Source: Hexactinellida sp. DTS-2022
Taxonomy: Eukaryota; Porifera; Hexactinellida
Assembly: GCA_028753945.1 (NCBI GenBank)
Contig: JAPNXP010000006.1
Coordinates: forward strand, 930,001 to 994,000
Direction of reading: 5' to 3'
Length of the DNA stretch: 64,000 bases
The notes under the pieces are model-generated. The model was not told the DNA's origin, made no database searches, and saw only the letters and a program-made list of their open reading frames with translations. Positions 10,147 through 64,000 of this stretch are shown one piece after another (position 1 is the stretch's first letter; each line of letters starts with the position of its first letter). The translations under genes were made by a program, and so were the position numbers.

Positions 10147-13100
10147 ATGAAGAGTGTATGTGATAAATTGGTGGTGTTTTTGATAACAATTTTGTCAGTG
10201 TCAGTTCTACAAATCAAAGCAGGTAATATTAATAGTAAATAGTAAACAAAAATGTAACACGGATTGCATGGATCAGAACTAAACATTTGATATTTGTATG
10301 TTGTTATCTTTCTCACAGCTCCAGTTCCTGACTTAGTTTTCAGAAATACTAATTATAAGTTCTTCTCTCATTCTCCATCAATTACCAGGGCAACAGCTGA
10401 AACATATTGCAATGCTTGGGGAGGTAATCTGGCTACAATTGAGTCATCAAAAGAAGATACAATGCTGAAGCTGTTGACCGATACAGTGGATTACTTTTCC
10501 TGTTGGATAGGACTGAATGACATGGGCACTGAGGCAGGTACAGATGCTAGTGCATTTGTATGGGTAGATGGTAGTAACAGTACATTTAGGAAATTAGGTA
10601 TGTTTCCAAATGACATTAATGATGCTGACTGTGTGACTTTCCGATATATGAAGGCTAATGGAATTATATCGAATGAATGGCAAAATTTGGCTTGTGATCA
10701 GTTAACCAATTGCAGCTATTGTTCAAAACCAGGTAACTATTTGAAACATATTTTTATAAGTAAAGGTAACACTGATTCCAACTATTATTACTAGGTGACT
10801 CCAGAGGATGTGACCTGATCTACGGAGGATCTTGTTACAGAGCATTTGAAGTGAGCGGTGGGATCAACTGGCTAGATGCTCAATCTAGCTGTGCTGTGTG
10901 GGGTGGTGACTTGACTAGTTTTGACCTTGTAAGAGATAAGGCCCTACTGTTTGAGTATATTCCTGACTCAGTGGGAGATTGCTGGATAGGATTGCATGAT
11001 AGAGATGGAGACGGGACTTTCCAATGGATTGATGGGACAGCATTGGATTATAAGAGATGGGATACAGGGGAACCAGGTGTAGCTAGTACAAATAAATGTG
11101 TAGAAATGATCGCTACAAGTAGAAGGTGGAGAAGTATCAGCTGTGATGGAACAAAGAATAGCTTTTTGTGTGAAATAGGCTTAACCAACATAACAACCCC
11201 AGGTATGTGTAGATAGCATGTTTTCTCAAATTATTTAAGCATATGGATGGAATACAAAACCATTTAGTAACTATTAATTAAATTTTCTCAGTGTATTATA
11301 TAATAGCACTGATTACTATCGAATGGCATATATAAATTGAATAGTAAATTGTAGTTCATTTTGTAATTTTGGATTTTGAGAAAAGGTGCATGTAGGTTAC
11401 AGATTTGGAGAGTTAATAGATGGAGGTTTGAATTTCAGATTATTGACTGTACATTTTTTCATATTCGACTCTACAACACTCGCATGCAAAGGAGATGTGA
11501 ATTCAGGTGCAACTACATGGCAGTACTCTATTAACGCTGATCTCTCATCAAGTGAAGTGCTAACTGCTACCTACATGAGTACACAGACTGGAGTGAGTTG
11601 GTTAGCAGTTGATAATACCAAGCAAGGATACTATCAGTGTCGCATCAGCAGTGCAAACAGATATACAGTAGGACTGTATAATAGTGAGAAGACAACAGGT
11701 CAGTGAATTCACAACTTTATAATCAATTTTGAATGACTCCAAATACATTTCCTATCTAGTTGCTGTATCAGGAAGCACATACACCTATATAGTAGGAGTA
11801 GATAGAGAGGATGTATTATTGCTGTGTGATCCTATGGACAGTAGTGTTGTTCTGAGCACTATAGCATGGACTGTTTTAGGTGGAAATTCCTTTACAAACC
11901 CTCTCAATATATATGATGAGAGAAGTAATTTACCATTTGAATCTACTGAGATGAATTGCTTCACCGGAGCAGTTTTAGTGACAACTAGTAGGATTAATGT
12001 GAAAGGTAACTTCTAAGTTCTAACCCAAACCATATTAATAATAATAATCGACATTTCTATTTGTTGCTCAAACACGAAACATTTAAATACTTCGCGTTAA
12101 CATATCCAAACTAAACTCACAGTTTTGTTAATAATTTTGTATCCAATTTAGCAAAAACTCAATGATGAGAACAAATTCTATATTGGGAAGTCTACAATAT
12201 AGAATATGTTATAATCAAAATACAACCCGATTTTTTCTGCTAAAGAAAATGGTCTTGCCTGTATCAAAAGTAAAAAATTGTATATTTGTTGACCCATTGA
12301 AACATCTACAGTAGAAACCAGTTTTTTCTAAATAATGGTTTTTTCTAAATATGTAAGAATTTCCAATTGTGTTATATTTTCAATCGGTTTATTCTAGCTA
12401 TCGGATTTTTCTTACTATATTTCCATGGAAATAATTGGTTAGAAAAAAACCCGTTTTATAGTGAGAACAAATTCAGTTGGTATTTTCCCTAATTTCTTAA
12501 TATAAACTGACACATAAAGAAGAGACAGACAACCATCAAACTAAGATGTTGTAGATATTATACATTCCATATTCTATTCTCTAGTACCAGAAATGACCAT
12601 TCGATACGGATCTATTGTTGGCAATACCTTCTATTCAGTAAATCCAACAGTGAATATAATTAATCTACCTTTATCAACCAAAGACATAACTATATCATTC
12701 AATCTTGATGGGAAATGGAAGCTTCCTGACAACAGCAATTATTCTAACTCTGAACTGACAATTTCTATATTCACCTCACAAAATGAGGGACTGTACAAGT
12801 TTTATATTATTAACTGGGATAGGGGAGAGGAATGTGCCATGCAATTAAGAATTGATTCAACAATTGCAGGTATGTATGATATAATGTAGTATCGGTGATT
12901 TACTAATTGTATATTTAATATCAATATCTAGATGTTACTCCAGTGAGAGAGGTTACATTTGGAGATTCAACATATGGATACTTTACTACCACAACAAGAA
13001 TTCATTGGTTAACAGCTCAACTACGTTGTAATAACTGGCAAGGAAATCTAGCAACAATAAATTCGAAACAAATAGACTCTTTACTCTACTATCTGGTTAC

Positions 13101-16100
13101 AGAGTACTTTACATGTTGGATAGGTTTGAATGACATAACAAGTGAAGCTAATCATACCGCTAGTGCATTTGTATGGGCAGATGGTAGTACTAGCACCTAC
13201 AGACAGTTTGATACGGTAGCCAATCCTAATGGTGAGCCTGATGATACAAATGGTGATAGGGATTGTGTAGGATTTCGATATGACAATAATCTTGGTTCAG
13301 ATGGCTGGGATGATAGAGGATGTAATGCCCATGTTTATTGCTACTTCTGTCAGAAGTCTGGTAAGTTCTTATCATAACATTATGAGATATCAAGTTATGT
13401 TAATATGACTGATTATTATCCAACAGGTGACTCCAGGGGATGTGACCTGATCTATGGAGGATCTTGTTACAGAGCATTTGAAGTGAGTGTTGGTATCAAC
13501 TGGCTAGATGCTCAATCTAGCTGTGCAGTGTGGGGTGGTGACCTGACTAGTATCGTTACAGAGAGAGAGAATAGCTTGTTGTACACTGCTATCTCTGATG
13601 CAGTGAGTAATTGCTGGATAGGATTGTATGAGAGAGGTGGAGATGGGACGTATCAACGGGTTGATGGGACAGTATCGAGTTACACTAACTGGACAGGAAG
13701 TGCTCCTACTGCTGACAATATAAATGATTGTATTCAAATGGACACTAATGGAGCTGGTAGCTGGATAGCTACAGACTGTAAGGGTACCAGCAATAGCTTT
13801 ATTTGTAAAAAGCCTAATACAAATACAGACACAACAGGTCTGTTAACTTTAAACATTGTTAATTTAATTTATAGAAACCTTTAAATTTACATCACTCTAC
13901 AGGTTATGTATTCGGAGAACTGACTGACCAAGGCCTGAATTTCCGCTCACTGACAGGAAATACATTCTTATTCGACTCAACAACAATCGCATGCAAAGGA
14001 GATGTGAATTCCGGTGCAACTACATGGCTATACTCTATTAACTCAGACCTCTCATCAAGTGAAGTGCTAACTGCTGCCTATATGAGTACACAGACTGGAG
14101 TGAGTTGGTTAGCAGTTGATAATACCAAACAAGGATACTATCAGTGTCGCATCAACAGTACAAACAGATATACAGTAGGACTGTATAATAGTGAGAAGAC
14201 AACAGGTCAGTAAATTCGGATAATTCTCGTCATAATCTGGTTCACATTTTCATTATTTACTATAATTCCAATTAGTTGCTGTATCAGGATTCACATACAA
14301 CTACACTGTGGGAGTTGATGGAGAAGATATCCTGTTGCTATGTGACCCTATGAACAGTAGCTATGATCTCGGTAGCTTGAGATGGCGCTTAATAGATGGA
14401 ATGATGTACGCCAATCCACTAAATGCCTCTGCTTTGAAGGAAATATTATTACCTCAGTTGAGCACACAATTATCATGCATTTCTGAGGGAAACACAGATA
14501 CTATTATTCTCATTAACATTATATTATATTGTAAGTTATAATGTTATAGTATACTTAATTAGATATAATATACAAAGATTTGTTACCAATGTGTTAAAAA
14601 TACAAATTTCTCTCATTTAGTTCCAGAGATTACAGTATCATACAATTCATTGACCAGTTTGAAATACAGTGCACCCTACCCTGCAAATAATATACTCAAT
14701 CTTAACATCTCAACACAAGACTTGTTGATTTCCGTAACTTCCCCAGGGAGATGGAAACTACCGGATAATACTTATGATACATCATTAATGCTGTATTTTG
14801 CATCATTGAGCAATGATACATTCGGACTATACCAGTTCTATACTATCAATTGGAATGGTGTTGAAGTATGTTCTATACAAATCATATTATTACAAGGAGG
14901 TAAGTACAGGTATCCCTCTTTTTACGCGGTAGATGCGTTCCTTGAAAAGCCCGCGTAAAACGAAATCGCGTAAAAAAACGGTTCATTCTCATAGTAACAC
15001 ATATTAAACCAATAGATGCGTTTCCAAATATTATAAACATCGAATAAAATTTTAAATACCTAGTGTTTAAACACTAAGAAATCCAACATCCGGACCTCTC
15101 AGATAGCCAAGGTTTCCGTGTGTATGTTAATCCCATGGGAATTCCCATAGGATTTCCAATATCGTTTTGAATGGAATTATTTTTACCTATGGGAATCCTG
15201 ATAGAAACCAACTTGTGAGAATACTTGGGAATTCCCACAGAAAGGTAATTGTGTTGTGAAGTGAATTAAAATTCCCTTCACACCGCAACCCTACACCTTC
15301 GGGTACCTCCCACAACCGGGTATCTCTAGTGTGAATAGTGAAGCAAATATGTATTCATTTGACCAATAATATATTTGGATGAACTTAATATACCACAAAT
15401 ACATATCCCTAACTATCTACTATCTCTAAATCATCATCTTTGTTTTTTTGGAAATGTAGAACCGCTTTGTTACCACTAAATCTTAAAAATTATCGAAAAT
15501 ATCCATAAAAAATAGAATTAATTGTATGAAAATCATAGATAACCGCATAAAACGAGTTGAAAAATCGCGTAAAAAAAGTTTTGGTCATAAAAATTGTTCC
15601 GCGTAAAACGAAAACGCGTTAAAAAAAACCGCGTAAAACGAGGTATTACTGTATATGATTAATTTACATTATAAATATACAGTGTTATGAAGTTATATTT
15701 CATACAGATTATACAAATGCACTTTCAATCTCAACATCAACATTGGGAACAGTCCAGAATGAATCAATAATAGTATTGAAGAACGAGATTATCACAATAT
15801 CATGCGGTATTTCTAACCCAACAGATAGAGTACAATGGTATTACAGATCCTATTACGATAGTGAGGTGATTGACAAAACCTCTCTATCAACATTCTCCGT
15901 ACAGACTGGCATCAGTAGTCTAGAGGTCAGTTCAAATCAACCTGGCTACTACAGCTGTGTTATAAATGCAAACACTCTATACACAATCTCCATTGCAGAC
16001 AGAGCAACATTAGGTAAGTGTATCTAATTTACATGTTAGAAGCTTCTAGCTTTTTCATTACAATGGATCCTATTCTTCTAGTTGAAATTACGAACTTTGA

Positions 16101-18297
16101 CTCTCCATCCCAACAAGTTGACTACACAGCTGGCTCTACTAGCTCAATGCTCTACTACTCTCATGCTAACATTCCAGACAACTCATTACGTTGGACACCA
16201 GACACGGTAACAAATGGTATTGATGCACAATACAGTATTGAGTATCCAAATCCAGTTCTGTTGAGTAGAATATTCTCTGATGTGGGAGCAGGTGTACACA
16301 CATTTAGTTGTTTCTATAGAATGAGTCCTGTCACTCTTGTTGGAAGTCTACAGCTTGTTATCAGAGGTTTGTATTCCAAATTTATAAATATTTATACATT
16401 ATTTGTTATTATCTTTAGATACAGCAGAGATAACAGTTAATTATGAGGGCTACAGCAATGCATTCAGTGATGCGAATAATCCAAACTTTCCATCTCCACA
16501 GCAAATAAATATCCTGATAGAAACATCCAATGTAACAATTAGCTGCCACCTTACTGAATGTATTGGAATAGTAAAACTTGAAAAATCTGGACAAGAAAAG
16601 GTAACTGAATTTCCCTTATTTATACCACAATTTACTTCAGAATCTGGTGGAGAATATTCGCTAATGAGACAAACAAGTTCTGGAAAAAACTACACCACAG
16701 CCCATCTGAGCATAAATGTGATAATTAATCCATCGCAAGTATCTTCAAGTGCACTACTTATTTCTATCATATCAATAGTGCTCGTCGTCAAATGTATAAC
16801 AGTATAAATCAACGTACTTGTTCCGATATGTATTAAAGTATTTGTCAAAAAACGGCAAAAATTGAACTCAAGTCCGTTCAAAGACAAAAAAACAGATTCC
16901 GCTAAAAATGAATTCTCCCTCATCAAAAGAGGCCACCATAACAAACGCAAAAGATCTTCTCATTCCAGAATAGCAGGAAGTGATGCATACTCTGGTTATG
17001 CAAACCTAGAAGAAATACAATCTCCGACAAAAGAATACATTGATCTTCCTGTTAAAACCAGTGTGGGAGAGTATATGACTATCGATGAGACATCAATAGT
17101 ACATATTGAACCTGAAACTAAAGCTCAAAATCAGAAAGGTCCGTACTATTCAAATTTGGGTAGCTTGCCTTCAGATGATAGAAATTATGAACAATTGAAG
17201 GAAGATAAAGAGTATATGGAAATAAATCGGTTTGAATTATATGAAACATATACATCAATGAGCGCAATCAAAGACGAAGAAATGAAATTCGTCTCAAAAG
17301 ATATTCCTGTGAAGGATTTTCCAGCCGCATACCAACAGTATGTTGCAAATGGAATGGGAAAGGATTCATTATTCTCTGTTGAATTTCGAGCATTAAACGA
17401 AGAATCAAGGGAAAATGTTGAACCAGACAGTGATGAGGCTAAAAAAGAGGTAAATGTTGGAAAAAATCCCATTAAAAACATACTTCCTTATGATGATAAT
17501 AGAGTTGTATTGCAATCTCCATACATTAAATGTAACTACATCAATGCAAGTTGGCTTGAGAATAATCAATTCATAGCCAGCCTCCATCCAACAGGAGAAA
17601 CATTACAAGATTTCCTACAGATGATCTACCAGACTGAAGCTAGTATGGTGATAATGCTAACTACGAGAAAGGAGAAAGCTAAGATCATTGGTGGAATTTC
17701 AACTCGTGTGTGTTATTGGCCTAAAAAGGAGGAATCTTTGAAATGTCATCCTTTTGAAGCCAGTTTAATCAGTTCTACTGAAACCAATGCATTTGCCAAA
17801 CAAGAAATTTCAGTGAAGAACACTTTAGAAGGAAAAAATCACTCATTTACCCAGTGTATTTCTCCTATATGGAACGAAGATAGTACTGTAGTTGATTTGA
17901 CGTGGGTATTTGCTCTGTTGACTCGAATCATGAAACAGAAGCAGGACTCACCTAATATTCCCATCATAATCCATTGTACCGATGGTATCTCAAAGACTGG
18001 CATCATAATGACTGCATTGAACTCAATCAAAGAACTCAATGCTAGGAACTCAATTAACATTTTCAACGCTGTTAAGAATCTTCGGAAACAAAGAATGAAC
18101 ATGGTACCTACCTTGGTAAGTGAAACCAATAATCTTTTTCTTTGATTTGGGTACACATGTCAACTGTCATTCAGGCAAAAAACATGCGTGCTTAGTATTT
18201 AATTTGTATGCCTTACTTTATCCTGTTTTGTTTCCTCTAGGCTTGCTATTCAACCTGCTACTCCCTACTGAACGAATACTGTTTTATTCACCTTTGA
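10147..18297 (+). CDS. Lectin-Ig receptor pseudophosphatase, copy 1 (stop codon inside the transmembrane segment)
   Basis: Fifteen exons: 10147-10222, 10319-10732, 10795-11202, 11396-11698, 11760-12005, 12585-12869, 12932-13360, 13427-13837, 13903-14205, 14276-14530, 14621-14899, 15708-16013, 16082-16366, 16419-18115, 18241-18297. All internal joins are phase 1, except the last, which is phase 0. Domains in order: signal peptide (exon 1); CTLD1 and CTLD2 with CWIGLND/CWIGLHD; Ig1-3; CTLD3 and CTLD4; Ig4-6; Ig7 (…QPGYYSC); two Ig-like segments; then exon 14 with transmembrane, tyrosine-rich tail and PTP domain. In this copy TAA at 16805-16807 cuts the protein to about 1462 residues within a transmembrane segment also hit by I-to-K and V-to-N changes. 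The 427-codon PTP frame beyond is otherwise open. The product would be secreted or held by a short hydrophobic tail. Confidence 0.8.
12307..12463. repeat. MITE-like inverted repeat in intron 5
   Basis: Ends TACAGTAGAAACCAGTTTTT and, inverted, TCACTATAAAACGGG, both followed by TTTTTTCTAA. The element is found in intron 5 of all five full copies (near 23503, 34671, 44673 and 54829), so it is older than the array. The rest of intron 5 (12006-12584) is unremarkable AT-rich DNA. Confidence 0.6.
14905..15653. mobile_element. Pogo/Tigger-like non-autonomous element in intron 11, copy 1
   Basis: 749 bp with TA-bounded inverted ends: TACAGGTATCCCTCTTTTTA and, on the other strand, TACAGTAATACCTCGTTTTA, followed by ACGCGG repeats. 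The CAGTAATACCTCG terminus is Tigger-like. It is absent from copies 3 and 4, where intron 11 and most of exon 11 are missing. Confidence 0.72.
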
Positions 18298-18598
18298 TCA
18301 GTAGTACATATTACCATAATTATGTACATATTATACGTATATTGATATTATCTTTAACAATATGTGATGTGATTCCCCTTTATACTTGTACATACGTATA
18401 TCAATAACTTAATAGTGTGTTTAAATTATAATTTTAAATCTACCAATGTGGTGATTTCAATACTGGCCCGCTACGAATAATAATTATAGTATCAAATTTG
18501 TTTAGTTATTCACTATTGAAAACAACATAATAAGATCCTTTGCAGCGTTGCCAGTTTCTTTCTATCACATTTCCTTTCATAGTTTTAAATAAATATAC

Positions 18599-18775
18599 TA
18601 CAGTGGAACTTCCACAAATGGGGCCTGTGGAAACGGGGATCCTCTGAAAATTGGGTAAAAAAATACAGCAAATTCCTAGACACATAAATGAACCTCCACA
18701 AACGGCGAATCGGCAGAAATGGGGAATCGGGGTGGCTAAGACCTTGCGTCCCTGGCACCCCGTTTGTGGACTGTA
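18599..18775. repeat. 177-bp pogo-like MITE in the 3' flank of copy 1
   Basis: Ends TACAGTGGAACTTCCACAAA and TTTGTGGACTGTA are inverted repeats. Copies 3 and 4 have the empty site (ATATACTA|GTTTGATT), which proves insertion at a TA dinucleotide. Confidence 0.85.
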
Positions 18776-18962
18776 GTTTGATTAACAATATGAAAAGTGA
18801 TGAGTCAGCATTTATTCTCAGTAAGTTTGTCGATTGCTAAACACCAACCAATATTTCCTAATTATTGAATTCACAAAATTGTAAAAAACATATTTTTGAC
18901 CATGTCATCATCACCTCAAGGTGTTAAAACCCATTTGTAGTGGTGTTACGTGGCAAAGGGAT

Positions 18963-21150: not shown

Positions 21151-21158
21151 ATGCAAAT
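21151..21158 (+). promoter_or_regulatory. Octamer-like ATGCAAAT in the copy 2 promoter
   Basis: Same conserved block as before copy 1, 184 bases ahead of the start codon. Confidence 0.35.
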
Positions 21159-21342: not shown

Positions 21343-24300
21343 ATGAAGAGTGTATGTGATAAATTGGTGGTGTTTTTTATAACAATCGTGTCAGTGTCAG
21401 TTCTACAAATCAAAGCAGGTAATATTAATAGTAAATAGTAAACAAAAATTCAACACATATGCATGGATAAAAACGAACCATTTTGATATTTACATGTTGT
21501 TATCTTTCCTGCAGCTCCAGTTCCTGACTTAATTTTCAGAAATACTAATTATAAGTTCTTCTCTCATTCTACATTAATTAACTGGGCAACGGCTGAAACA
21601 TATTGCAATGCTTGGGGAGGTAATCTGGCTACAATTGAGTCATCAAAAGAAGATAAAATGCTGAAGCTGTTGACCGATATACACAAATACTTTTCCTGTT
21701 GGATAGGACTGAATGACATGGATATTGAGGCAGGTACAGATGCTAGTGCATTTGTATGGGTAGATGGTAGTAACAGTACATATAGGAAATTAGGTATGTT
21801 TCCAAATAATACAAATGATAGTGACTGTGTGACTTTTCGATATGAGATGCCTAATGGAATTATATCGAATGAATGGCAAAATCTGAATTGTGATCAGTTA
21901 ACCAATTGCAGCTATTGTTCAAAACCAGGTAACTATTGAAGCATATTTTTATAAGTAAAAAGTAACACTGATTCCAACTATTATTACTAGGTGACTCCAG
22001 AGGATGTGACCTGATCTACGGAGGATCTTGTTACAGAGCATTTGAAGTGAGTGGTGGTATCAACTGGCTAGATGCTCAGTCTAGCTGTGCTGTGTGGGGC
22101 GGTGACCTGACTAGTTTTGATTTTGTAATAGATAAGGCCCTAATGTTTGAGTATATTCCTGACTCAGTAGGAGATTGCTGGATAGGATTGCATGATAGAG
22201 ATGGAGACGGGACTTTCCAATGGGTTGATGGGACAGCATTGATTTATGAGAGATGGGATACAGGGGAACCAGGTGTAGCTACTACAAATAAATGTGTGGA
22301 AATGATCGCTACTAGTAGAAGGTGGAGAAGTATCAGCTGTGATGGAACCAAAACTAGCTTTTTGTGTGAAATAGGCTTTAGCAACATAACAACCCCAGGT
22401 ATGTGTAGATAGCATGTTTTCTCAAATTATTTAAGCATATGGTATGGAATACAAACCATTTAGTAACTATTAATTAAATTTCTCAGGGGTATTATATAAT
22501 AGCACTGATTACTATCTAATGGCATATAGAAATTGAATAGTAAATTGTAGTTCATTATGTAATTTGGGATTTTGAGAAAAGGTGCATGTAGGTTACAGAT
22601 TTGGAGAGTTAATAGATGGAGGTTTGAATTTCAGATTACTGACTGTACATTTTTTCTTATTCGACTCTACAACGCTCGCATACAAAGGAGATGTGAATTC
22701 AGGTGCAACTACATGGCAGTACTCTATTAACGCTGATCTCTCATCAAGTGAAGTGCTAACTGCTACCTACATGAGTACACAGACTGGAGTGAGTTGGTTA
22801 GCAGTTGATAATACCAAGCAAGGATACTATCAGTGTCGCATCAGCAGTGCAAACAGATATACAGTAGGACTGTATAATAGTGAGAAGACAACAGGTCAGT
22901 GAATTCACAACTTTATAATCAATTTTGAATGACTCCAAATACATTTCCTATCTAGTTGCTGTATCAGGAAGCACATACACCTATATAGTAGGAGTAGATA
23001 GAGAGGATGTATTATTGCTGTGTGATCCTATGGACAGTAGTGTTGTTCTGAGCACTATAGCATGGACTGTTTTAGGTGGAAATTCCTTTACAAACCCTCT
23101 CAATATATATGATGAGAGAAGTAATTTACCATTTGAATCTACTGAGATGAATTGCTTCACCGGAGCAGTTTTAGTGACAACTAGTAGGATTAATGTGAAA
23201 GGTAACTTCTAAGTTCTAACCCAAACCATATTAATAATAATAATCGACATTTCTATTTGTTGCTCAAACACGAAACATTTAAATACTTCGCGTTAACATA
23301 TCCAAACTAAACTCACAGTTTTGTTAATAATTTTGTATCCAATTTAGCAAAAACTCAATGATGAGAACAAATTCTATATTGGGAAGTCTACAATATAGAA
23401 TATGTTATAATCAAAATACAACCCGATTTTTTCTGCTAAAGAAAATGGTCTTGCCTGTATCAAAAGTAAAAAATTGTATATTTGTTGACCCATTGAAACA
23501 TCTACAGTAGAAACCAGTTTTTTCTAAATAATGGTTTTTTCTAAATATGTAAGAATTTCCAATTGTGTTATATTTTCAATCGGTTTATTCTAGCTATCGG
23601 ATTTTTCTTACTATATTTCCATGGAAATAATTGGTTAGAAAAAAACCCGTTTTATAGTGAGAACAAATTCAGTTGGTATTTTCCCTAATTTCTTAATATA
23701 AACTGACACATAAAGAAGAGACAGACAACCATCAAACTAAGATGTTGTAGATATTATACATTCCATATTCTATTCTCTAGTACCAGAAATGACCATTCGA
23801 TACGGATCTATTGTTGGCAATACCTTCTATTCAGTAAATCCAACAGTGAATATAATTAATCTACCTTTATCAACCAAAGACATAACTATATCATTCAATC
23901 TTGATGGGAAATGGAAGCTTCCTGACAACAGCAATTATTCTAACTCTGAACTGACAATTTCTATATTCACCTCACAAAATGAGGGACTGTACAAGTTTTA
24001 TATTATTAACTGGGATAGGGGAGAGGAATGTGCCATGCAATTAAGAATTGATTCAACAATTGCAGGTATGTATGATATAATGTAGTATCGGTGATTTACT
24101 AATTGTATATTTAATATCAATATCTAGATGTTACTCCAGTGAGAGAGGTTACATTTGGAGATTCAACATATGGATACTTTACTACCACAACAAGAATTCA
24201 TTGGTTAACAGCTCAACTACGTTGTAATAACTGGCAAGGAAATCTAGCAACAATAAATTCGAAACAAATAGACTCTTTACTCTACTATCTGGTTACAGAG

Positions 24301-27300
24301 TACTTTACATGTTGGATAGGTTTGAATGACATAACAAGTGAAGCTAATCATACCGCTAGTGCATTTGTATGGGCAGATGGTAGTACTAGCACCTACAGAC
24401 AGTTTGATACGGTAGCCAATCCTAATGGTGAGCCTGATGATACAAATGGTGATAGGGATTGTGTAGGATTTCGATATGACAATAATCTTGGTTCAGATGG
24501 CTGGGATGATAGAGGATGTAATGCCCATGTTTATTGCTACTTCTGTCAGAAGTCTGGTAAGTTCTTATCATAACATTATGAGATATCAAGTTATGTTAAT
24601 ATGACTGATTATTATCCAACAGGTGACTCCAGGGGATGTGACCTGATCTATGGAGGATCTTGTTACAGAGCATTTGAAGTGAGTGTTGGTATCAACTGGC
24701 TAGATGCTCAATCTAGCTGTGCAGTGTGGGGTGGTGACCTGACTAGTATCGTTACAGAGAGAGAGAATAGCTTGTTGTACACTGCTATCTCTGATGCAGT
24801 GAGTAATTGCTGGATAGGATTGTATGAGAGAGGTGGAGATGGGACGTATCAACGGGTTGATGGGACAGTATCGAGTTACACTAACTGGACAGGAAGTGCT
24901 CCTACTGCTGACAATATAAATGATTGTATTCAAATGGACACTAATGGAGCTGGTAGCTGGATAGCTACAGACTGTAAGGGTACCAGCAATAGCTTTATTT
25001 GTAAAAAGCCTAATACAAATACAGACACAACAGGTCTGTTAACTTTAAACATTGTTAATTTAATTTATAGAAACCTTTAAATTTACATCACTCTACAGGT
25101 TATGTATTCGGAGAACTGACTGACCAAGGCCTGAATTTCCGCTCACTGACAGGAAATACATTCTTATTCGACTCAACAACAATCGCATGCAAAGGAGATG
25201 TGAATTCCGGTGCAACTACATGGCTATACTCTATTAACTCAGACCTCTCATCAAGTGAAGTGCTAACTGCTGCCTATATGAGTACACAGACTGGAGTGAG
25301 TTGGTTAGCAGTTGATAATACCAAACAAGGATACTATCAGTGTCGCATCAACAGTACAAACAGATATACAGTAGGACTGTATAATAGTGAGAAGACAACA
25401 GGTCAGTAAATTCGGATAATTCTCGTCATAATCTGGTTCACATTTTCATTATTTACTATAATTCCAATTAGTTGCTGTATCAGGATTCACATACAACTAC
25501 ACTGTGGGAGTTGATGGAGAAGATATCCTGTTGCTATGTGACCCTATGAACAGTAGCTATGATCTCGGTAGCTTGAGATGGCGCTTAATAGATGGAATGA
25601 TGTACGCCAATCCACTAAATGCCTCTGCTTTGAAGGAAATATTATTACCTCAGTTGAGCACACAATTATCATGCATTTCTGAGGGAAACACAGATACTAT
25701 TATTCTCATTAACATTATATTATATTGTAAGTTATAATGTTATAGTATACTTAATTAGATATAATATACAAAGATTTGTTACCAATGTGTTAAAAATACA
25801 AATTTCTCTCATTTAGTTCCAGAGATTACAGTATCATACAATTCATTGACCAGTTTGAAATACAGTGCACCCTACCCTGCAAATAATATACTCAATCTTA
25901 ACATCTCAACACAAGACTTGTTGATTTCCGTAACTTCCCCAGGGAGATGGAAACTACCGGATAATACTTATGATACATCATTAATGCTGTATTTTGCATC
26001 ATTGAGCAATGATACATTCGGACTATACCAGTTCTATACTATCAATTGGAATGGTGTTGAAGTATGTTCTATACAAATCATATTATTACAAGGAGGTAAG
26101 TACAGGTATCCCTCTTTTTACGCGGTAGATGCGTTCCTTGAAAAGCCCGCGTAAAACGAAATCGCGTAAAAAAACGGTTCATTCTCATAGTAACACATAT
26201 TAAACCAATAGATGCGTTTCCAAATATTATAAACATCGAATAAAATTTTAAATACCTAGTGTTTAAACACTAAGAAATCCAACATCCGGACCTCTCAGAT
26301 AGCCAAGGTTTCCGTGTGTATGTTAATCCCATGGGAATTCCCATAGGATTTCCAATATCGTTTTGAATGGAATTATTTTTACCTATGGGAATCCTGATAG
26401 AAACCAACTTGTGAGAATACTTGGGAATTCCCACAGAAAGGTAATTGTGTTGTGAAGTGAATTAAAATTCCCTTCACACCGCAACCCTACACCTTCGGGT
26501 ACCTCCCACAACCGGGTATCTCTAGTGTGAATAGTGAAGCAAATATGTATTCATTTGACCAATAATATATTTGGATGAACTTAATATACCACAAATACAT
26601 ATCCCTAACTATCTACTATCTCTAAATCATCATCTTTGTTTTTTTGGAAATGTAGAACCGCTTTGTTACCACTAAATCTTAAAAATTATCGAAAATATCC
26701 ATAAAAAATAGAATTAATTGTATGAAAATCATAGATAACCGCATAAAACGAGTTGAAAAATCGCGTAAAAAAAGTTTTGGTCATAAAAATTGTTCCGCGT
26801 AAAACGAAAACGCGTTAAAAAAAACCGCGTAAAACGAGGTATTACTGTATATGATTAATTTACATTATAAATATACAGTGTTATGAAGTTATATTTCATA
26901 CAGATTATACAAATGCACTTTCAATCTCAACATCAACATTGGGAACAGTCCAGAATGAATCAATAATAGTATTGAAGAACGAGATTATCACAATATCATG
27001 CGGTATTTCTAACCCAACAGATAGAGTACAATGGTATTACAGATCCTATTACGATAGTGAGGTGATTGACAAAACCTCTCTATCAACATTCTCCGTACAG
27101 ACTGGCATCAGTAGTCTAGAGGTCAGTTCAAATCAACCTGGCTACTACAGCTGTGTTATAAATGCAAACACTCTATACACAATCTCCATTGCAGACAGAG
27201 CAACATTAGGTAAGTGTATCTAATTTACATGTTAGAAGCTTCTAGCTTTTTCATTACAATGGATCCTATTCTTCTAGTTGAAATTACGAACTTTGACTCT

Positions 27301-48500: not shown

Positions 48501-49708
48501 AATCTAAAGATCAAAATCAGAAAGGTCTCTATTATTCAAATTTGGGTAGCTTGCCTTCAGATGATAGAAATTATGAACAAATGAAGGAAGATAAAGAGTA
48601 TATGGAAATAAATCGGTTTGAATTATATGAAACATATACATCAATGAGCGCAATCAAAGACGAAGAAATGAAATTCGTCTCAAAAGATATTCCTGTGAAG
48701 GATTTTCCAGCCACATACCAACAGTATGTTGCAAATGGAATGGGAAAGGATTCATTATTCTCAGTTGAATTTCGAGCATTAAACGTAGAATCAAGGGAAA
48801 ATGTTGAACCAGACAGTGATGAGGCTAAAAAAGAGCAAAATATTGGAAAAAATCCCATTAAAAACATACTTCCTTATGATGATAATAGAGTTGTATTGCA
48901 ATCTCCATATTTTAAATGTAACTACATCAATGCAAGTTGGCTTGAGAATAATCAATTCATAGCCAGCGTCCATCCAACAGGAGAAACATTACAAGATTTC
49001 CTACAGATGATCTACCAGACTGAAGCTAGTATGGTGATAATGCTAACTACGAGAAAGGAGAAAGCTAAGATTATTGGTGGAATTTCAACTCGTGTGTGTT
49101 ATTGGCCTAAAAAGGACGAATCTTTGAAATGTCATCCTTTTGAAGCCAGTTTAATCAGTTCTACTGAAACCAATGCATTTGTCAAACAAGAAATTTCAGT
49201 GAAGAACACTTTAGAAGGAAAAAATCACTCATTTACTCAGTGTATTTCTCCTATATGGAACGAAGATAGTACTGTAGTTGATTTGACGTGGATATTTGCT
49301 CTTTTGACTCGAATCATGAAACAGAAGCAGGACTCACCTAATATTCCCATCATAATCCACTGTACCGATGGTATCTCAAAGACTGGCATCATAATGACTG
49401 CATTGAACTCAATCAAAGAACTCAATGCTAGGAACTCAATTAACATTTTCAACGCAGTTAAGAATCTTCGGAGACAAAGAATGAACATGGTACCTACCTT
49501 GGTAAGTTAAACCAATAATCTTTTTCTTTGATTTGGGCTAAAAATATGCCTGTTTAGTACTTAATTTGTATGTCTAAGAAGCTAAGAAACAACGTATAAT
49601 TATCTTATCTATTTAATTATGCCTTACTTTATCGTGTTTTGTTTCCTCTAGGCTTGTTATTCAACCTGCTACTCCCTACTGAACGAATACTGTTTTATTC
49701 ACCTTTGA
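42530..49708 (+). pseudogene. Lectin-Ig receptor pseudophosphatase, copy 4 (1-nt deletion in CTLD2; no exon 11)
   Basis: Exons: 42530-42605, 42703-43116, 43179-43585, 43748-44050, 44112-44357, 44965-45249, 45309-45737, 45804-46214, 46280-46582, 46653-46907, 47090-47395, 47466-47750, 47805-49501, 49652-49708. Exon 3 is 407 nt instead of 408. One T is missing after 43339 (GAGATATT against GAGTATATT elsewhere), which shifts the frame and reaches a TAG about 30 bases later in CTLD2. All other exons are open, the transmembrane and PTP parts are intact, and exon 11 is lost as in copy 3. Either a very young pseudogene, an allele, or a sequencing error. Proximal promoter DNA is separated from the distal flank by the foldback element. 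Confidence 0.7.
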
Positions 49709-52664: not shown

Positions 52665-55600
52665 ATGAAGAGTGTATGTGATAAATTGGTGGTATTTTTT
52701 ATAACAATCGTGTCAATGTCAGTTCTACAAATCAAAGCAGGTAATATTAATAGTAAATAGTAAACAAAAATTTAACACAGATTGCATGGATCAAAACTAA
52801 ACATTTTGATATTTACATGTTGTTATCTTTCCTGTAGCTCCAGTTCCTGACTTAGTTTTCAGAAATACTAATTATAAGTTCTTCTCTCATTCTCCATTAA
52901 TTAACTGGGCAACAGCTGAAACATATTGCTATGATTGGGGAGGTAATCTGGCTACAATTGAGTCATCAAAAGAAGATACAATGCTGAAGCTGTTGACCGA
53001 TACAGGGGATTTCTTTTCCTGTTGGATAGGGCTGAATGACATGGGTATTGAGGCAGGTACAGATGCTAGTGCATTTGTATGGGTAGATGGTAATAACAGT
53101 ACATATAGGAAATTAGGTATGTTTCCAAATAATACAAATGATAGTGAGTGTGTGACTTTCCGATATATGAAGGCTAATGGAATTATATCGAATGAATGGC
53201 AAAATCTGGCTTGTGATCAGCTAACCAATTGCAGCTATTGTTCAAAACCAGGTAACTATTGAATGAGATTTCGATAAGGAAAAAGTAATATTGATTCCAA
53301 CTATTATTTCTAGGTGACTCCAGAGGATGTGACCTGATCTATGGAGGATCTTGTTACAGAGCATTTGAAGTGAGTGATGGTATCAACTGGCTAGATGCTC
53401 AATCTAGCTGTGCTGTGTGGGGTGGTAACTTGACTAGTTTTGATTTTGTAAGAGATGTGGGCCTACTGTTTGAGTATATTCCTGACTCAGTGGGAGATTG
53501 CTGGATAGGATTGCATGATAGAGATGGAGACGGGACTTTCCAATGGGTTGATGGGACAGCATTGATTTATGAGAGATGGGATACAGGGGAACCAGGTGTA
53601 GCTACTACAAATAAATGTGTAGAAATGATCGCTACAAGTAGAAGGTGGAGAAGTATCAGCTGTGATGGAACAAAGAATAGCTTTTTGTGTGAAATAGGCT
53701 TAACCAACATAACTACCCCAGGTATGTGTAGATAGCATGTTTTCTCAATTATTTAAGCATATGGTATGGAATACAAAACCATTTAGTATCTATTAATTAA
53801 ATTTTCTCAGTGTATTATATAATAGCACTGATTACTATCTAATGGCATATAGAAATTGAATATAGAAATTGAATTGTAGTCATTATGTAATTTTGGACTT
53901 TGAGAAAAGGTGCATGTAGGTTACAGATTTGGAGAGTTAATAGATGGAGGTTTGAATTTCAGATTATTGACTGTACATTTTTTCTTATTCGACTCTACAA
54001 CGCTCGCATGCAAAGGAGATGTGAATTCAGGTGCAACTACATGGCAGTACTCTATTAACGCTGATATCTCATCAAGTGAAGTGCTAACTGCTGCCTATAT
54101 GAGTACACAGACTGGAGTGAGTTGGTTAGCAGTTGATAATACCAAGCAAGGATACTATCAGTGTCGCATCAGCAGTGCAAACAGATATACAGTAGGACTG
54201 TATAATAGTGAGAAGACAACAGGTCGGTAATTCACAAACTTTATAATCAATTTTTCATTACTCCTAATACATTTCCTTATCTAGTTGCTGTATCAGGAAG
54301 CACATACACCTATATAGTAGGGGTAGATAGAGAGGATGTACTACTGCTGTGTGACCCTATGGACAGTAGTGTTGTTCTGAGCACTATAACATGGACTGTT
54401 TTAGGTGGAAATTCCTTTACAAACCCTCTCAATATCTATGATGAGAGAAGTAATTTACCATTCGAATCTACTGAGATGAATTGCTTCACCGCAGCAGTTT
54501 TAGTGACAACTAGTATTATTAATGTGAAAGGTAACTTCTAACCCAGGTCAAACTAATTAAATACTTCGCGTTAACATATCCAAACTAAACTCACAGTTTT
54601 GTTAATAATTTTGTACCAATTTAGCAAATACTCAATGATGAGAACAAATTCTACATTGGGAAGTCTACAATATACGTATAATATGTTATAATCAAAGGGC
54701 TTACTCAATTTTCATCAGCCGCTGACATCATTTCAAAATACAACACGATTTTTTATGCCAAAGAAAATGGTCTTGCCTGCATCAAAAGTAACAAATTTGT
54801 TTAATTATTGACACATTGAAAACAGCTACAGTTGAACCGGTTTTTTTTAACTAATCGTTTTTTCAAAGTATCTATATATTCTAAATATGTAAGAATTTCC
54901 AATTTTGTTTTATTTTCAATCGGTTTATTCTAGCTATCGGATTTTTCTTACTATATTTCTATGGGAATAATTGGTTAGAAAAAACCGGTTTTATAGTGAA
55001 AACAAATTCAGTTGGTATTTTCTTATTTCATAAACAATCAGAACAACAAACAAACTGACACATAAAGAAGAGACAGACAACCATCAAACTAAGATGTTGT
55101 AGATATCATACATTCCATATTCTATTCTCTAGTACCAGAAATGACCATTCGATACGGATCTATTGTTGACAGTACCTTCTATTCAGTGAATCCAACAGTG
55201 AATATAATTAATCCACCCTTATCAACCAAAGACATTACTATATCAATCAATCTTGATGGGAAATGGAAGCTTCCTGACAACAGCTACATTACTAACACTG
55301 GACTGACAATTTCTGTATTCAGCTCACAAAATGAGGGACTGTACAAGTTTTATATTATTAACTGGGATGGGGAAGAGGAATGCGCTATGCAATTAATAAT
55401 TAACTCAGCAATTGTAGGTATGTATGATATAATGTAGTATCGATGATTTACTAATTGTTAAATAATAACAATATCTAGATGTTACTCCAGTGAGAGAGGT
55501 TACATTTGGAGATTCAACATATGGATACTTTACTACTACACGAAGAATTCATTGGTTAATCGCTCAACTAGGTTGTAATTACTGGCAAGGAAATCTAGCA

Positions 55601-58600
55601 ACAATAAATTCGAAACAAATAGACTCATTACTCTACTATCTGGTTACAGAGTCCTTTGCATGTTGGATAGGGCTGAATGACATAATAAATGAAGCTAATC
55701 ATAACGCTAGTGCATTTGTATGGGCAGATGGTAGTACTAGCACTTATAGACAGTTTGATACGGTAGCCAATCCTAGTGGTGAGCCTGATGATACAAATGG
55801 TGAAAGGGATTGTGTAGGATTCCGATATGACAATAATCTGGGTTCAGATGGATGGGATGATAGAATATGTGATTCCTATGTTTATTGTTACTTCTGTCAG
55901 AAGTCAGGTAAGTAGTCATGATAACATTATGAGATATCTAGCATAGGATTAATTTTAAGGCCGATCTTGGTGTAAATTTTGCACGATTCGGTTCACGATT
56001 CGGATCGGCCGCGGCCACCGCAGTGTTGAGTACACCAAAGCGACAACCTTAAAAAAACCCTGATCTAGCAATGTTGATATGTCTGATTCTCCAACAGGTG
56101 ACTCCAGAGGATGTGACCTGATCTACGGAGGATCTTGTTACAGAGCATTTGAAGTGAGTGTTGGTATCAACTGGCTAGATGCTCAATCTAGCTGTGCTGT
56201 GTGGGGTGGTTACCTGACTAGTATCGCTACAGAGAGAGAGAATAGCTTGTTGTACACTGCTATCTCTGATGCAGTGAGTAATTGCTGGATAGGATTGTAC
56301 GAGAGAGATGGAGATGGGACGTATCAATGGGTTGATGGGACAGTATCGAGTTACACTAACTGGACAGGAAGTGCTCCTACTGCTAACAATATAAATGATT
56401 GTATTCAAATGAACACTAATGGAGCTGGTAGTTGGATAGCTACAGACTGTGAGGGTACCAGCAATAGCTTTATTTGTAAAAAGCCTTCTACAAATACAGA
56501 CACAACAGGTCTGTTAACTTAAACATTGTTAATTTAATTTATAGAAACCTATAAATTTACATCACTCTACAGGTTATGTATTCGGAGAACTGACTAACGC
56601 AGGCCTGAATTTCCGCTCACTGACAGGGAATACATTCTTATTCGACTCTACAACACTCGCATACAAAGGAGATCTGAATTCAGGTGCAACTACATGGCAG
56701 TACTCTATTAACGCTGATCTATATTCAAGTGAAGTGCTAACTGCTACCTATATGAGTACAGAGACTGGAGTGAGTTGGTTAGCAGTTGATAATACCAAAC
56801 AAGGATACTATCAGTGTCGCATCAACAGTACAAACAGATATACAGTAGGACTGTATAATGGTGAGAAGACAACAGGTCAGTAATTCGGATAATTCTCGTC
56901 ATAATCTGGTTCATATTTTCATTATTCACTAAAATTCCAATTAGTTGCTGTATCAGAAATCACATACAACTACACTGTGGGAGTTGATGGAGAAGATATC
57001 CTGTTGATATGTGACCCTATGAACAGCAGCTATGATCTCGGTAGCTTGAGATGGCGCTTAATAGATGGAATGGTGTACGCCAATCCACTAAATGCCTCTG
57101 ATTTGAAGGAAATATTATTGCCTCAGTTGAGCACACAATTATCATGCATTTCTGAGGGAAACACAGATACTATTATTGCCATTAACATTATATTATATTG
57201 TAAGTTATAATGTTATAGTATACTTAATTAGATATAATATACAAAGATTTGTTACCAATGTGTTAAAAATACAAATTTCTCTCATTTAGTTCCAGAGATT
57301 ACAGTATCATACAATTCATTGACCAGTTTGAAATACAGTGCGCCCTACCCTGCAAATAATATACTCAATCTTAACATCTTAACACAAGACTTGTTGATTT
57401 CCGTAACTTCCCCAGGGAGATGGAAACTACCGGATAATACTTATGATACATCATTAATGCTGTATTTTGCATCATTGAGCAATGATACATTCGGACTATA
57501 CCAGTTCTATACTATCAATTGGAATGGTGTTGAAGTATGTTCTATACAAATCATATTATTACAAGGAGGTAAGTACAGGTATCCCTCTTTTTACGCGGTA
57601 GATGCGTTCCTTGAAAAGCCCGCGTAAAACGAAATCGCGTAAAAAAACGGTTCATTCTCATAGTAACACATATTAAACCAATAGATGCGTTTCCAAATAT
57701 TATAAACATCGAATAAAATTTTAAATACCTAGTGTTTAAACACTAAGAAATCCAACATCCGGACCTCTCAGATAGCCAAGGTTTCCGTGTGTATGTTAAT
57801 CCCATGGGAATTCCCATAGGATTTCCAATATCGTTTTGAATGGAATTATTTTTACCTATGGGAATCCTGATAGAAACCAACTTGTGAGAATACTTGGGAA
57901 TTCCCACAGAAAGGTAATTGTGTTGTGAAGTGAATTAAAATTCCCTTCACACCGCAACCCTACACCTTCGGGTACCTCCCACAACCGGGTATCTCTAGTG
58001 TGAATAGTGAAGCAAATATGTATTCATTTGACCAATAATATATTTGGATGAACTTACTATACCACAAATACATATCCCTAACTATCTACTATCTCTAAAT
58101 CATCATCTTTGTTTTTTTGGAAATGTAGAACCGCTTTGTTACCACTAAATCTTAAAAATTATCGAAAATATCCATAAAAAATAGAATTAATTGTATGAAA
58201 ATCATAGATAACCGCATAAAACGAGTTGAGGATCGCGTAAAAAAAGTTTTGGTCATAAAAAATTGTTCCGCGTAAAACGAAAACGCGTTAAAAAAAACCG
58301 CGTAAACGAGGTATTACTGTATATGATTAATTTACATTATAAATATACAGTGTTATGAAGTTATATTTCATACAGATTATACAAATGCACTTTCAATCTC
58401 AACATCAACATTGGGAACAGTCCAGAATGAATCAATAATAGTATTGAAGAACGAGATTATCACAGTATCATGCGGTATTTCTAACGCAACAGATAGAGTC
58501 CAATGGTATTACAGATCCTATTACGAAAGTGAGGTGATTGACAAAACCTCTCTATCAACATTCTCCGTACAGACTGGCATCAGTAGTCTAGAGGTCAGTT

Positions 58601-60964
58601 CAAATCAACCTGGCTACTACAGCTGTGTTATAAATGCAAACACTCTATACACAATCTCCATTGCAGACAGAGCAACATTAGGTAAGTGTATCTAATTTAC
58701 ATGTTAGAAGCTTCTAGCTTTTTCATTACAATGGATCCTATTCTTCTAGTTGAAATTACGAACTTTGACTCTCCATCCCAACAAGTTGACTACACAGCTG
58801 GCTCTACTAGCTCAATGCTCTACTACTCTCATGCTAACATTCCAGACAACTCATTACGTTGGACACCAGACACGGTAACAAATGGTATTGATGCACAATA
58901 CAGTATTGAGTATCCAAATCCAGTTCTGTTGAGTAGAATATTCTCTGATGTGGGAGCAGGTGTACACACATTTAGTTGTTTCTATAGAATGAGTCCTGTC
59001 ACTCTTGTTGGAAGTCTACAGCTTGTTATAAGAGGTATGTATTCCAAATTTATAAATATTGATACAAATTATTTGTTGGTATCTTTAGATACAGCAGAGA
59101 TAACAGTTAATTATGAGGGCTACAGCAATGCATTCAGTGATGCGCATAATCCAAACTTTCCATCTCCACAGCAAATAAATATCCTGATAGAAACATCCAA
59201 TGTAACGATTAGCTGCCACCTTACTGAATGTATTGGAATAGTAAAACTTGAAAAAACTGGGCAAGAAAAAGTAACTGAATCTCCCTTAATTATTCCACAA
59301 TTTACTTCAGAATCTGGTGGAGAATATTCGCTAATGAGACAAACAAGTTCTGGAAAAAACTACACCACAGCCCATCTAAGCATTAATGTGATAATTAATC
59401 CCTCGCAAGAATCTTCAAGTGCACTACTTATTTCTATCATATCAATAGTGCTCGTCGTCATATGTATAACAGTAATAATCGTCGTACTTGTTCCGATATG
59501 TATCAAATTTGTCAAAAAACGGCAAAAATTGAACTCAAGTCCGTTCAAAGGTAAAAATACAGATTCCGCTAAAAATGAATTCTCCCTCATCAAAAGAGGC
59601 CAACATAACAAACGCAAAAGATCTTCTCATTCCAGAATAGCAGGCAGTGATGCATACTCTGGTTATGCAAACCTAGAAGAAATACAATCTCCGACAAAGG
59701 AATACATTGATCTTCCTGTTAAAACCAGTGTGGGAGAGTACATGACTATCGATGAGACATCAATAGTACATATTGAACCTGAAACTAAAGATCAAAATCA
59801 GAAAGGTCTCTATTATTCAAATTTGGGTAGCTTGCCTTCAGATGATAGAAATTATGAACAAATGAAGGAAGATAAAGAGTATATGGAAATAAATCGGTTT
59901 GAATTATATGAAACATATACATCAATGAGCGCAATCAAAGACGAAGAAATGAAATTCGTTTCAAAAGATATTCCTGTGAAGGATTTTCCAGCCGCATACC
60001 AACAGTATGTTGCAAATGGAATGGGAAAGGAATCATTATTCTCAGTTGAATTTCGAGCATTAAACGTAGAATCAAGGGAAAATGTTGAACCAGACAGTGA
60101 TGAGGCTAAAAAAGAGCTAAATGTTGGAAAAAATCCCATGAAAAACATACTTCCTTATGATGCTAATAGAGTTGTATTGCAATCTCCATATTTTAAATGT
60201 AACTACATAAATGCAAGTTGGCTAGAGAATAATCAATTCATAGCCAGCCTCCATCCAACAGGAGAAACATTACAAGATTTCCTACAGATGATCTACCAGA
60301 CTGAAGCTAGTATGGTGATAATGCTAACTACGAGAAAGGAGAAAGCTAAGATTATTGGTGGAATTTCAACTCGTGTGTGTTATTGGCCTAAAAAGGAGGA
60401 ATCTTTGAAATGTCATCCTTTTGAAGCCAGTTTAATCAGTTCTACTGAAACCAATGCATTTGCCAAACAAGAAATTTCAGTGAAGAACACTTTAGAAGGA
60501 AAAAATCATTCATTTACCCAGTGTATTTCTCCTATATGGAACGAAGATAGTACTGTAGTTGATTTGACGTGGGTATTTGCTCTGTTGACTCGAATCATGA
60601 AACAGAAGCAGGACTCACCTAATATTCCCATCATAATCCATTGTACCGATGGTATCTCAAAGACTGGCATCATAATGACTGCATTGAACTCAATCAAAGA
60701 ACTCAATGCTAGGAACTCAATTAACATTTTCAACGCTGTTAAGAATCTTCGGAAACAAAGAATGAACATGGTACCTACCTTGGTAAGTGAAACCAACAAT
60801 ATTTTTCTTTGATTTGGGTACACATGTCAACTGTCATTCAGGCAAAAAACATGCGTGCTTAGTATTTAATTTGTATGCCTTACTTTATCCTGTTTTGTTT
60901 CCTCTAGGCTTGCTATTCAACCTGCTACTCCCTACTGAACGAATACTGTTTTATTCACCTTTGA
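52665..60964 (+). CDS. Lectin-Ig receptor pseudophosphatase, copy 5 (all 15 exons, intact)
   Basis: Exons: 52665-52740, 52838-53251, 53314-53721, 53920-54222, 54285-54530, 55133-55417, 55479-55907, 56098-56508, 56573-56875, 56945-57199, 57290-57568, 58376-58681, 58750-59034, 59089-60782, 60908-60964. About 1916 residues: signal peptide 1-25; CTLDs about 26-163, 164-299, 578-720, 721-857; Ig or Ig-like 300-577 and 858-1440; transmembrane about 1443-1475 ending KFVKKRQ; tyrosine motifs YANL, YIDL, YMTI, YSNL, YEQM, YMEI and YTSM about 1520-1615; PTP about 1628-1916. The PTP core keeps NILPYD, NYINASW and ML…YWP. Its WPD loop reads WNE and its P-loop HCTDGISKTG (near 60639), with lysine in place of the catalytic arginine. 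In Ig4 the first cysteine is tyrosine (LAYKGD). Likely the reference functional copy. Confidence 0.85.
55944..56062. repeat. 119-bp hAT-like MITE in intron 7, copy 5
   Basis: Same insertion and same ATCTAGCA duplication as at 35809-35927. Confidence 0.8.
57574..58321. mobile_element. Pogo/Tigger-like non-autonomous element in intron 11, copy 5
   Basis: Same insertion as in copies 1 and 2, with a few base differences (e.g. a missing A in CGCGTAAACGAGG), so it is an older copy than the copy 1/2 pair. Confidence 0.72.
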
Positions 60965-63650: not shown

Positions 63651-63834
63651 GAGCATTGAACCTTTTAATGGCGTATTTATTCTATACAGGAAGATGTATC
63701 ATACGAGTACACATAATATCAAATAACCCCCTGCAAATTAACCTATTAAATTATATGGAGGAACTATTTAATTGAGTACATAGATTCATATGTGTATTAT
63801 AATTAGTTGGACAACTGTACTGTGACATCTAGCA

Positions 63835-64000
63835 ATGAAGAGTGTATGTGATAAATTGGTGGTGTTTTTGATAACAATCGTGTAAGTGTCAGTTCTACAA
63901 ATCAAAGCAGGTAATATTAATAGTAAATAGTAAACAAAAATGTAACACAGATTGCATGGATCAGAACAAAACATTTGATATTTATATGTTGTTATCTTTC
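63835..64000 (+). pseudogene. Lectin-Ig receptor, copy 6: exon 1 only, nonsense codon in the signal peptide; runs off the window
   Basis: Exon 1 occupies 63835-63910 and the start of intron 1 follows to the window end. Codon 17 is TAA (63883-63885) where the other copies have TCA, so the signal peptide stops after 16 residues. The change also creates a GTAAGT donor-like hexamer at 63882, but use of that site would join exon 2 out of frame. No other ATG is available in exon 1. A pseudogene or a sequencing error. Confidence 0.6.

Follow-up and report, generated by a model that had tools for sequence, protein, structure and literature searches.

What does a protein tyrosine phosphatase (PTP) domain do at the end of a lectin receptor? 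The question is raised by a stretch of 64,000 nucleotides from the sponge Hexactinellida sp. DTS-2022 (contig JAPNXP010000006.1, positions 930,001 to 994,000), hereafter the window, which corresponds to C15:930001-994000 of the 112.4-Mb genome in 18 contigs. It carries a tandem array of genes in which C-type lectin domains (CTLDs) and immunoglobulin (Ig)-like domains precede a transmembrane (TM) helix, a tyrosine-rich tail and a PTP domain. The array is real and mostly as it was first observed in a preliminary description of the window. Its PTP domain is likely a pseudophosphatase, related to the second domain (D2) of receptor-type PTPs (RPTPs) rather than to the catalytic first domain (D1). 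We favour, as the probable reading, a family of recognition or adhesion receptors that descends from an RPTP, has lost D1 and has kept a docking tail and a pseudo-D2.

Gene plan and ectodomain

Self-comparison of the window places the array between about 9.9 kb and the window end. Five gene-length copies on a common plan and the first exon of a sixth lie on the + strand between 10147 and 64000 (Table 1); the flanking sequence extends copy 6 past the window, to 71453 in window-extended coordinates. A blastn search with the copy-1 exons detected no further copy, either within 10 kb upstream of the window or in the sequence reaching to 103 kb from its start. The five full copies and partial sixth of the preliminary description are thus present, but an uninterrupted reading frame is found in copies 3 and 5 only.

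Exon borders were read by eye in copy 1 and projected onto the other copies. The protein begins with a signal peptide (exon 1), followed by two CTLD-CTLD-A-B-C modules (CTLDs in exons 2, 3 and 7, 8; A-B-C in exons 4-6 and 9-11), where A, B and C denote three types of non-lectin domain. Exons 12 and 13 encode A and B of a third triplet. Exon 14 encodes the last ectodomain domain, the TM helix, the tail, a linker and most of the PTP domain, the end of which lies in exon 15. The signal peptide exon and the single TM helix of each copy were read by eye. All 82 modelled introns of the six copies are GT-AG, and outside the frameshifted copy 4 the introns are in phase 1 up to the last, which is in phase 0. 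Because the inner introns are in phase 1, an inner exon can be lost or skipped without loss of frame, as copy 3, which lacks exon 11, demonstrates. For exon 12 an acceptor at 15693 (copy 1) was rejected as it breaks the frame in copies 3 and 4; the chosen acceptor, with the border between TTTCATACAG and AT, lies 15 bases further on, is found in all six copies and preserves the frame, copies 3 and 4 included. Ahead of exon 12 the intron measures about 0.8 kb in copies 1, 2 and 5 (14900-15707 in copy 1) but 61 bases in copy 6, and the extra length is probably an insertion.

The uniform splice sites, the phases in register and the single exon that joins an ectodomain domain, the TM helix, the tail and part of the PTP domain argue that the lectin and PTP exons form one gene, predicted to yield a single transcript. 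This had been proposed from the start, as had the four lectin domains and the TM helix with its tyrosine-rich tail, and these elements stand. The proposed 15 exons apply to copies 1, 2, 5 and 6, but copies 3 and 4 have 14.

Lectin_C (PF00059) matches four stretches of copy 1 above the curated cut-off (E=5.6e-46), and 24 of 24 CTLD places over the six copies pass it, CTLD2 of copy 4 in part only. Near-motifs of the calcium site (EPN/QPD, WND) occur in CTLD3 only, which aligns to CD209b with EPD at the EPN position and WDD at the WND position; CTLD1, 2 and 4, read by eye, are without them.

The ectodomain contains nine further domains in copies 1, 2, 5 and 6, in the order A-B-C three times over, and eight in copies 3 and 4, which are without the exon of the sixth (exon 11). 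All nine had been described, approximately, as Ig-like. Domain searches of the predicted proteins bring Lectin_C and the PTP family PF00102 over their cut-offs, but the Ig profiles of Pfam match the A type (exons 4, 9 and 12) only at scores under theirs. The exon 4/9 profile aligns with that of exon 12 (hhalign, 93%); the Ig-like exon of an RPTP gene elsewhere in the genome (C17, see below) reaches 72% with exon 12 and only 30% with exons 4/9. The C domains (exons 6/11 versus the start of exon 14) are weakly alike (32% in the profile comparison), and the C-type profile retrieved no convincing Ig domain from the PDB, where the best match (E 0.37) was an unrelated enzyme and carcinoembryonic antigen followed at 1.4. 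The B domains gained no Ig support in the profile searches, and a search of NCBIfam gave nothing useful. Since Ig support reaches the A type only, for six of the domains the description as 'about nine Ig' is based on pattern.

Kinship of the cytoplasmic domain

PF00102 matches above cut-off in all six copies (copy 3, E=1.1e-42), as one stretch in the product of copy-3 exon 14. The array domain has neither the HCx5R P-loop nor the WPD loop, and no membrane-proximal D1 precedes it. In six of six copies the P-loop reads HCTDGISKTG, with Lys for Arg, and IWNED replaces WPD; the KNRY motif reads KNP. The P-loop Cys is retained throughout. An Arg-to-Lys change in the P-loop is expected to cripple catalysis.

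Tree, insertion and linker point to D2 kinship. The tree was built from 28 PTP domains of the genome, without split or fragmentary ones and without those of copies 2 and 4. In it the orphan domains, namely those of array copies 1, 3, 5 and 6 and of a paralogue on C3, form a single clade (100/99) whose sister is the D2 of C17 (96/91). The orphan side of the tree (92/93) holds nine of the 11 D2s and no D1, and all 12 D1s lie on one side of a branch (94/95). An insertion before the CYWP stretch, seen by eye in the alignment, is common to the orphans and seven of 11 D2s and occurs in none of the 12 D1s. The linker that joins D1 to D2 in tandem receptors is retained in front of the orphan domain (KDFPATYQQYV...VEFRAL versus ADFTSTYKQYI...YNEL in C17). 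A PDB search with the copy-3 exon 14 product returned RPTP-alpha as best match, through its second domain (88.1 bits) ahead of its first (62.6 bits). The cytoplasmic PTP domain that had been described is therefore present as a fold, but by tree, insertion and linker it appears to be an orphan D2 without key catalytic residues, and likely a pseudophosphatase.

The closest relative with both domains lies at C17:3386-3389 kb. Here a CTLD exon (Lectin_C E=4.5e-17) and an Ig-like exon (Ig_3 E=0.007, under cut-off), both with phase-1 borders, adjoin a long exon that encodes a TM helix, D1 (WPDHDVP, HCSAGVGRTG) and D2 (HCTDGIGRTG). Linker and D2 of the array are 43% identical to those of C17, whose D2 is the nearest to the array domain in this genome. 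The splice donor after PTL is the same in the array, C3 and C17.

The CTLD-CTLD-A-B-C module is likewise repeated in the C3 locus (582-595 kb), where the last triplet too is preceded by two CTLDs. One D2 was found in this locus, with the P-loop HCEDGISKTG, and the last exon was not found on reading it. Exon 14 is 55% identical to that of the array; the D2 is its best conserved part (160/219), ahead of the last ectodomain domain (48/106) and the tail (50/139). C3 would thus encode a second orphan-D2 lectin receptor of the genome. The copy 5 tail has 10 Tyr in 143 residues, six of which are Tyr in C3; this retention above the overall identity is suggestive only. By eye, two of the 10 (SGYANL, LYYSNL) fit the immunoreceptor tyrosine-based inhibition motif [ILVS]xYxx[ILV]; neither site fits in C3, which has one elsewhere (LEYMVI).

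Other loci with related domains were noted. A cluster of tandem-domain RPTP genes at C11:62-85 kb has D2 P-loops that deviate from HCx5R in all five aligned cases (C11a, b, c, e, f), and the D1 of C11c is without the P-loop Cys. Many CTLD exons lie at C1:11.9-12.7 Mb, eight of them, at 12.4-12.7 Mb, beside A-like Ig exons; the genome profile search gave no PF00102 match near this cluster. Within C17:310-448 kb, one 8-kb stretch (440501-448500) contains short orphan-D2 remnants with stops, which adjoin tandem open reading frames (ORFs) that by eye resemble NHL-repeat proteins. As to gene content in general, the genome gave 16 homeodomain matches and no innexin match, although the controls of the innexin search were silent as well; in the parts inspected of 12 loci retrieved for 32 cathepsin matches no clear silicatein was seen. 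A sponge was considered the likely source on this basis.

Copies, selection and alternative readings

Four of the six copies carry disabling lesions, which represent three independent events. Copies 1 and 2 have in common a TAA in the TM helix, alongside I-to-K and V-to-N changes there, which removes the tail and leaves the ectodomain open. In copy 4 a single base is missing from exon 3 (CTLD2), and in copy 6 a TAA interrupts the signal peptide. A segment of 11,181 bases (11487-22667), which runs from the 3' part of copy 1 across the spacer into the 5' part of copy 2, recurs without mismatch 11,196 bases downstream. Copy 2 is a hybrid, identical to copy 3 in its 5' part and to copy 1 in its 3' part, with the junction (22668-22682) inside ectodomain exon 4. 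Such a hybrid would result from a single unequal exchange of copy 1 with copy 3 within exon 4; copy 2 may also have been duplicated by the assembly. In their 3' halves copies 3 and 4 agree at 99.2% over 5,918 bases, and the remaining copy pairs show differences of about 2 to 10 percent along most of their length. The perfect repeat, the exonic junction and the independent lesions agree with the young age and fast turnover claimed for the array in the preliminary description.

The variable ectodomain that the same description had assumed fares poorly. The mean ratio of the proportions of nonsynonymous and synonymous differences (pN/pS) over copy pairs is 0.27-0.54 in 11 of the 13 exons 1-13; the exceptions are exon 2 (CTLD1, 0.95) and exon 11 (0.88, from six pairs with few changes). 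It is 0.37 for the last ectodomain domain, 0.42 for the TM helix, 0.42 for the tail and 0.29 for linker and D2. The pairs are not independent, copies 1 and 2 being near-identical, and exchange has homogenised parts of the copies; copy 4 was excluded from exon 3 and codons containing stops were skipped. These values indicate purifying selection on most exons. Counts of private codon changes after the TM helix, made among copies 1, 3, 5 and 6 only, failed as a sign of decay: replacement to silent is 5:4 in copy 1 and 13:10 in copy 6, and the intact copies look alike (5:3 in copy 3, 3:3 in copy 5).

The anatomy of the genes, their kinship to D2, the missing catalytic residues, the purifying selection and the hybrid copy, all read from the sequence, would fit the following origin. 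The ancestor may have been an RPTP with a C-type lectin and Ig ectodomain, a type I membrane receptor. Its catalytic D1 would have been lost, such that the tyrosine-rich tail now runs straight into the old D1-D2 linker and D2, and its ectodomain would have grown by duplication of the CTLD-CTLD-A-B-C module of phase-1 exons. We infer from the anatomy that the ectodomain binds a cell-surface or matrix ligand, with CTLD3 as the best candidate for calcium-dependent sugar binding, and that cellular kinases phosphorylate tail tyrosines, which may then dock SH2 proteins. The pseudo-D2 could serve as a binding module that shields phosphotyrosine substrates from active phosphatases, or that pairs with D1 of active receptors; PTPRU, a pseudophosphatase RPTP, offers a precedent for such binding (PMC7320164). 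The locus itself would turn over by unequal exchange and birth-and-death.

A number of observations weigh against this origin. The C17 gene is assembled from adjacent exons, and neither its Ig-to-TM join nor its signal peptide nor its last exon was located. A comparison of the tail with the juxtamembrane region of C17 gave no significant similarity, as shuffled sequences score as well (167 of 1000 for the array, 45 of 1000 for C3), and leaves their homology unsupported. The tree places two of the 11 D2s (C7, C4) on the D1 side, its root serves for display only, and five of its end branches are long. In the PDB search CD45 aligns best through its first PTP domain (residues 47-273 of 1ygr). The P-loop Lys is not special to the orphans but occurs in four other D2s (C11a, c, d, e); C17_D2 has Arg, so that the orphan Lys may either have arisen in this lineage or be old; and Lys need not abolish phosphate binding. 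The Ig nature of the B and C domains is unsupported (weak for C, none for B). Lastly, most copies of the array are damaged.

A self/non-self or microbe recognition system, in which copies 3 and 5 would signal and copies 1 and 2, without tails, would serve as decoys, is possible but not likely. It would draw on the youth of the array, the duplication junction within an ectodomain exon, the pN/pS of CTLD1, a TM stop that cuts off only the tail, and the 110 CTLD matches in the genome, of which 24 lie in the array. Yet constraint prevails in the ectodomain exons of this one genome, copy 2 may owe its existence to the assembly, and the TM stop stands among other changes of the helix that loss of function would explain equally well. 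Loss of function is the core of a further reading, unlikely in our view, namely that the locus is a decaying pseudogene array with one or two working genes, mostly dead copies and no special function as an array. The lesions, together with the exon deletion in copies 3 and 4, are what such decay would leave; the low pN/pS values, two copies open throughout and a D2 strongly conserved relative to C3 are not, and the private codon changes do not separate broken from intact copies.

That the PTP domain is active or weakly active, and the protein an ordinary RPTP with an unusual ectodomain, is very unlikely: the invariant P-loop Cys and a Pfam score far over the cut-off would suit it, but we reject it on the residues (Lys for the P-loop Arg in all copies and in C3, WNED, KNP) and on the D2 kinship in the tree. 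An incorrect gene model with lectin and PTP exons in separate genes, or an array created by the assembly, is also very unlikely, for although the perfect repeat and the near-identical 3' halves of copies 3 and 4 could be false duplications, the phase-1 exons are in register among copies, their order recurs in as much of the C3 paralogue as was read and the other copy pairs differ too much.

The preferred reading, RPTP-derived receptors that have kept a docking tail and pseudo-D2, could be taken further. A stand-alone pseudophosphatase D2 might be the signalling or scaffolding end of a class of lectin/Ig receptors, in an array whose recombination yields chimeric ectodomains and decoys without tails for self/non-self or microbe recognition in an early-branching animal; we regard this extension as decidedly doubtful.

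Table 1. Positions of the array copies and their features (window coordinates).
Feature	Position	Strand	Remarks
Copy 1	10147..18297	+	15 exons; TAA 16805-16807 inside TM helix
Copy 1, exons 1-5	10147-10222, 10319-10732, 10795-11202, 11396-11698, 11760-12005	+	
Copy 1, exons 6-10	12585-12869, 12932-13360, 13427-13837, 13903-14205, 14276-14530	+	
Copy 1, exons 11-15	14621-14899, 15708-16013, 16082-16366, 16419-18115, 18241-18297	+	
Copy 2	21343..29493	+	15 exons, at copy-1 coordinates + 11196; TM stop of copy 1 at 28001-28003
Copy 3	32539..39867	+	14 exons; 1824 aa; no internal stop; exon 11 mostly deleted
Copy 3, exon 10 to exon 12	36812-37066 to 37249-37554	+	in-frame join
Copy 4	42530..49708	+	14 exons like copy 3; exon 3 (CTLD2) 43179-43585 with frameshifting 1-base deletion
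Copy 5	52665..60964	+	15 exons; 1916 aa; sole 15-exon copy without lesion
Copy 5, CTLD1 and CTLD2	52838-53251, 53314-53721	+	Lectin_C matches
Copy 5, first A-B-C triplet	53920-54222, 54285-54530, 55133-55417	+	A (Ig-like), B, C
Copy 5, CTLD3 and CTLD4	55479-55907, 56098-56508	+	Lectin_C matches
Copy 5, second A-B-C triplet	56573-56875, 56945-57199, 57290-57568	+	
Copy 5, third A-B-C triplet	58376..59420	+	A 58376-58681, B 58750-59034, C at start of exon 14 (end approximate)
Copy 5, exon 14	59089..60782	+	last C domain, TM helix, tail, D1-D2 linker, orphan D2
Copy 5, exon 15	60908..60964	+	C-terminal end of D2 domain; first found by eye in copy 1
Copy 6, signal peptide exon	63835..63910	+	TAA 63883-63885; remainder beyond window, to 71453, open

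Two near-perfect inverted repeats lie between copies, at 41272-42420 (arms of 532 bases, 99.1%) and 51113-52555 (579 bases, 97.6%). The former contains no ORF over 72 aa and has CCCCTGC on both sides; both look like foldback insertions or insertions of the miniature inverted-repeat transposable element type. Elsewhere in the window two long ORFs on the + strand carry death effector domains, 7653-8987 with four stretches (E=1.8e-28) and 5790-7109 with one match under cut-off (E=6.3e-06). An ORF on the - strand (428-1081) ends in a C-terminal RING-type zinc finger (PF13920). An Rfam gathering search of the window gave no match.

Comparison with known receptors

We know of no RPTP precedent for a CTLD ectodomain. 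Text searches of an open-access library, some of them aimed at sponge genomes, listed no paper on an RPTP of this kind or on a stand-alone D2 receptor, a weak negative as most subscription papers and preprints were outside the scope of that library. In the accessible part of a review of human RPTPs 'lectin' occurs once, for a separate receptor (PMC10815196). Most human RPTPs combine an active D1 with an inactive D2; PTPRU, by contrast, has two pseudophosphatase domains and binds substrates of related phosphatases (PMC7320164). Because most human RPTPs pair D2 with an active D1, the function of a solo D2 is hard to ask there. A lone D2 behind a lectin ectodomain, conserved between two loci and with a D1+D2 lectin-Ig gene in the same genome, would offer a natural experiment on D2 function, and the array would add a lectin-bearing branch to the RPTP-derived receptors.

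With the tandem RPTPs the array has in common a signal peptide, a modular ectodomain, one TM helix, the D1-D2 linker and the D2 fold; it differs in its CTLDs, the missing D1 and the lack of the P-loop Arg and WPD. The PTPRU ectodomain consists of MAM, Ig and fibronectin (FN) domains, and PTPRN carries one inactive PTP domain, which is D1-like. PTPRU and PTPRN/PTPRN2 resemble the array as membrane receptors whose inactive PTP domain may work by binding, whereas in the array only a D2-type domain is left. Within the genome, C17 agrees with the array in its CTLD and Ig-like exons upstream of the TM helix, their phase-1 borders and the donor after PTL, but it has a canonical D1, a D2 with Arg and a presumed Ig-to-TM join. 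C3 has the same modules and an orphan D2, and differs in the extra CTLD pair before the last A-B-C triplet.

The natural killer (NK)-complex C-type lectin genes, the KIR-type clusters and Hydractinia Alr are tandem lectin or Ig receptor genes with Tyr motifs and turnover, and to our knowledge their receptors are without a PTP domain. The resemblance to such allorecognition or immune clusters, which the preliminary description had pointed out, is one of analogy only: the array is like them in tandem layout, lectin and Ig-like ectodomains, tail Tyr and turnover, and differs from them by its PTP domain.

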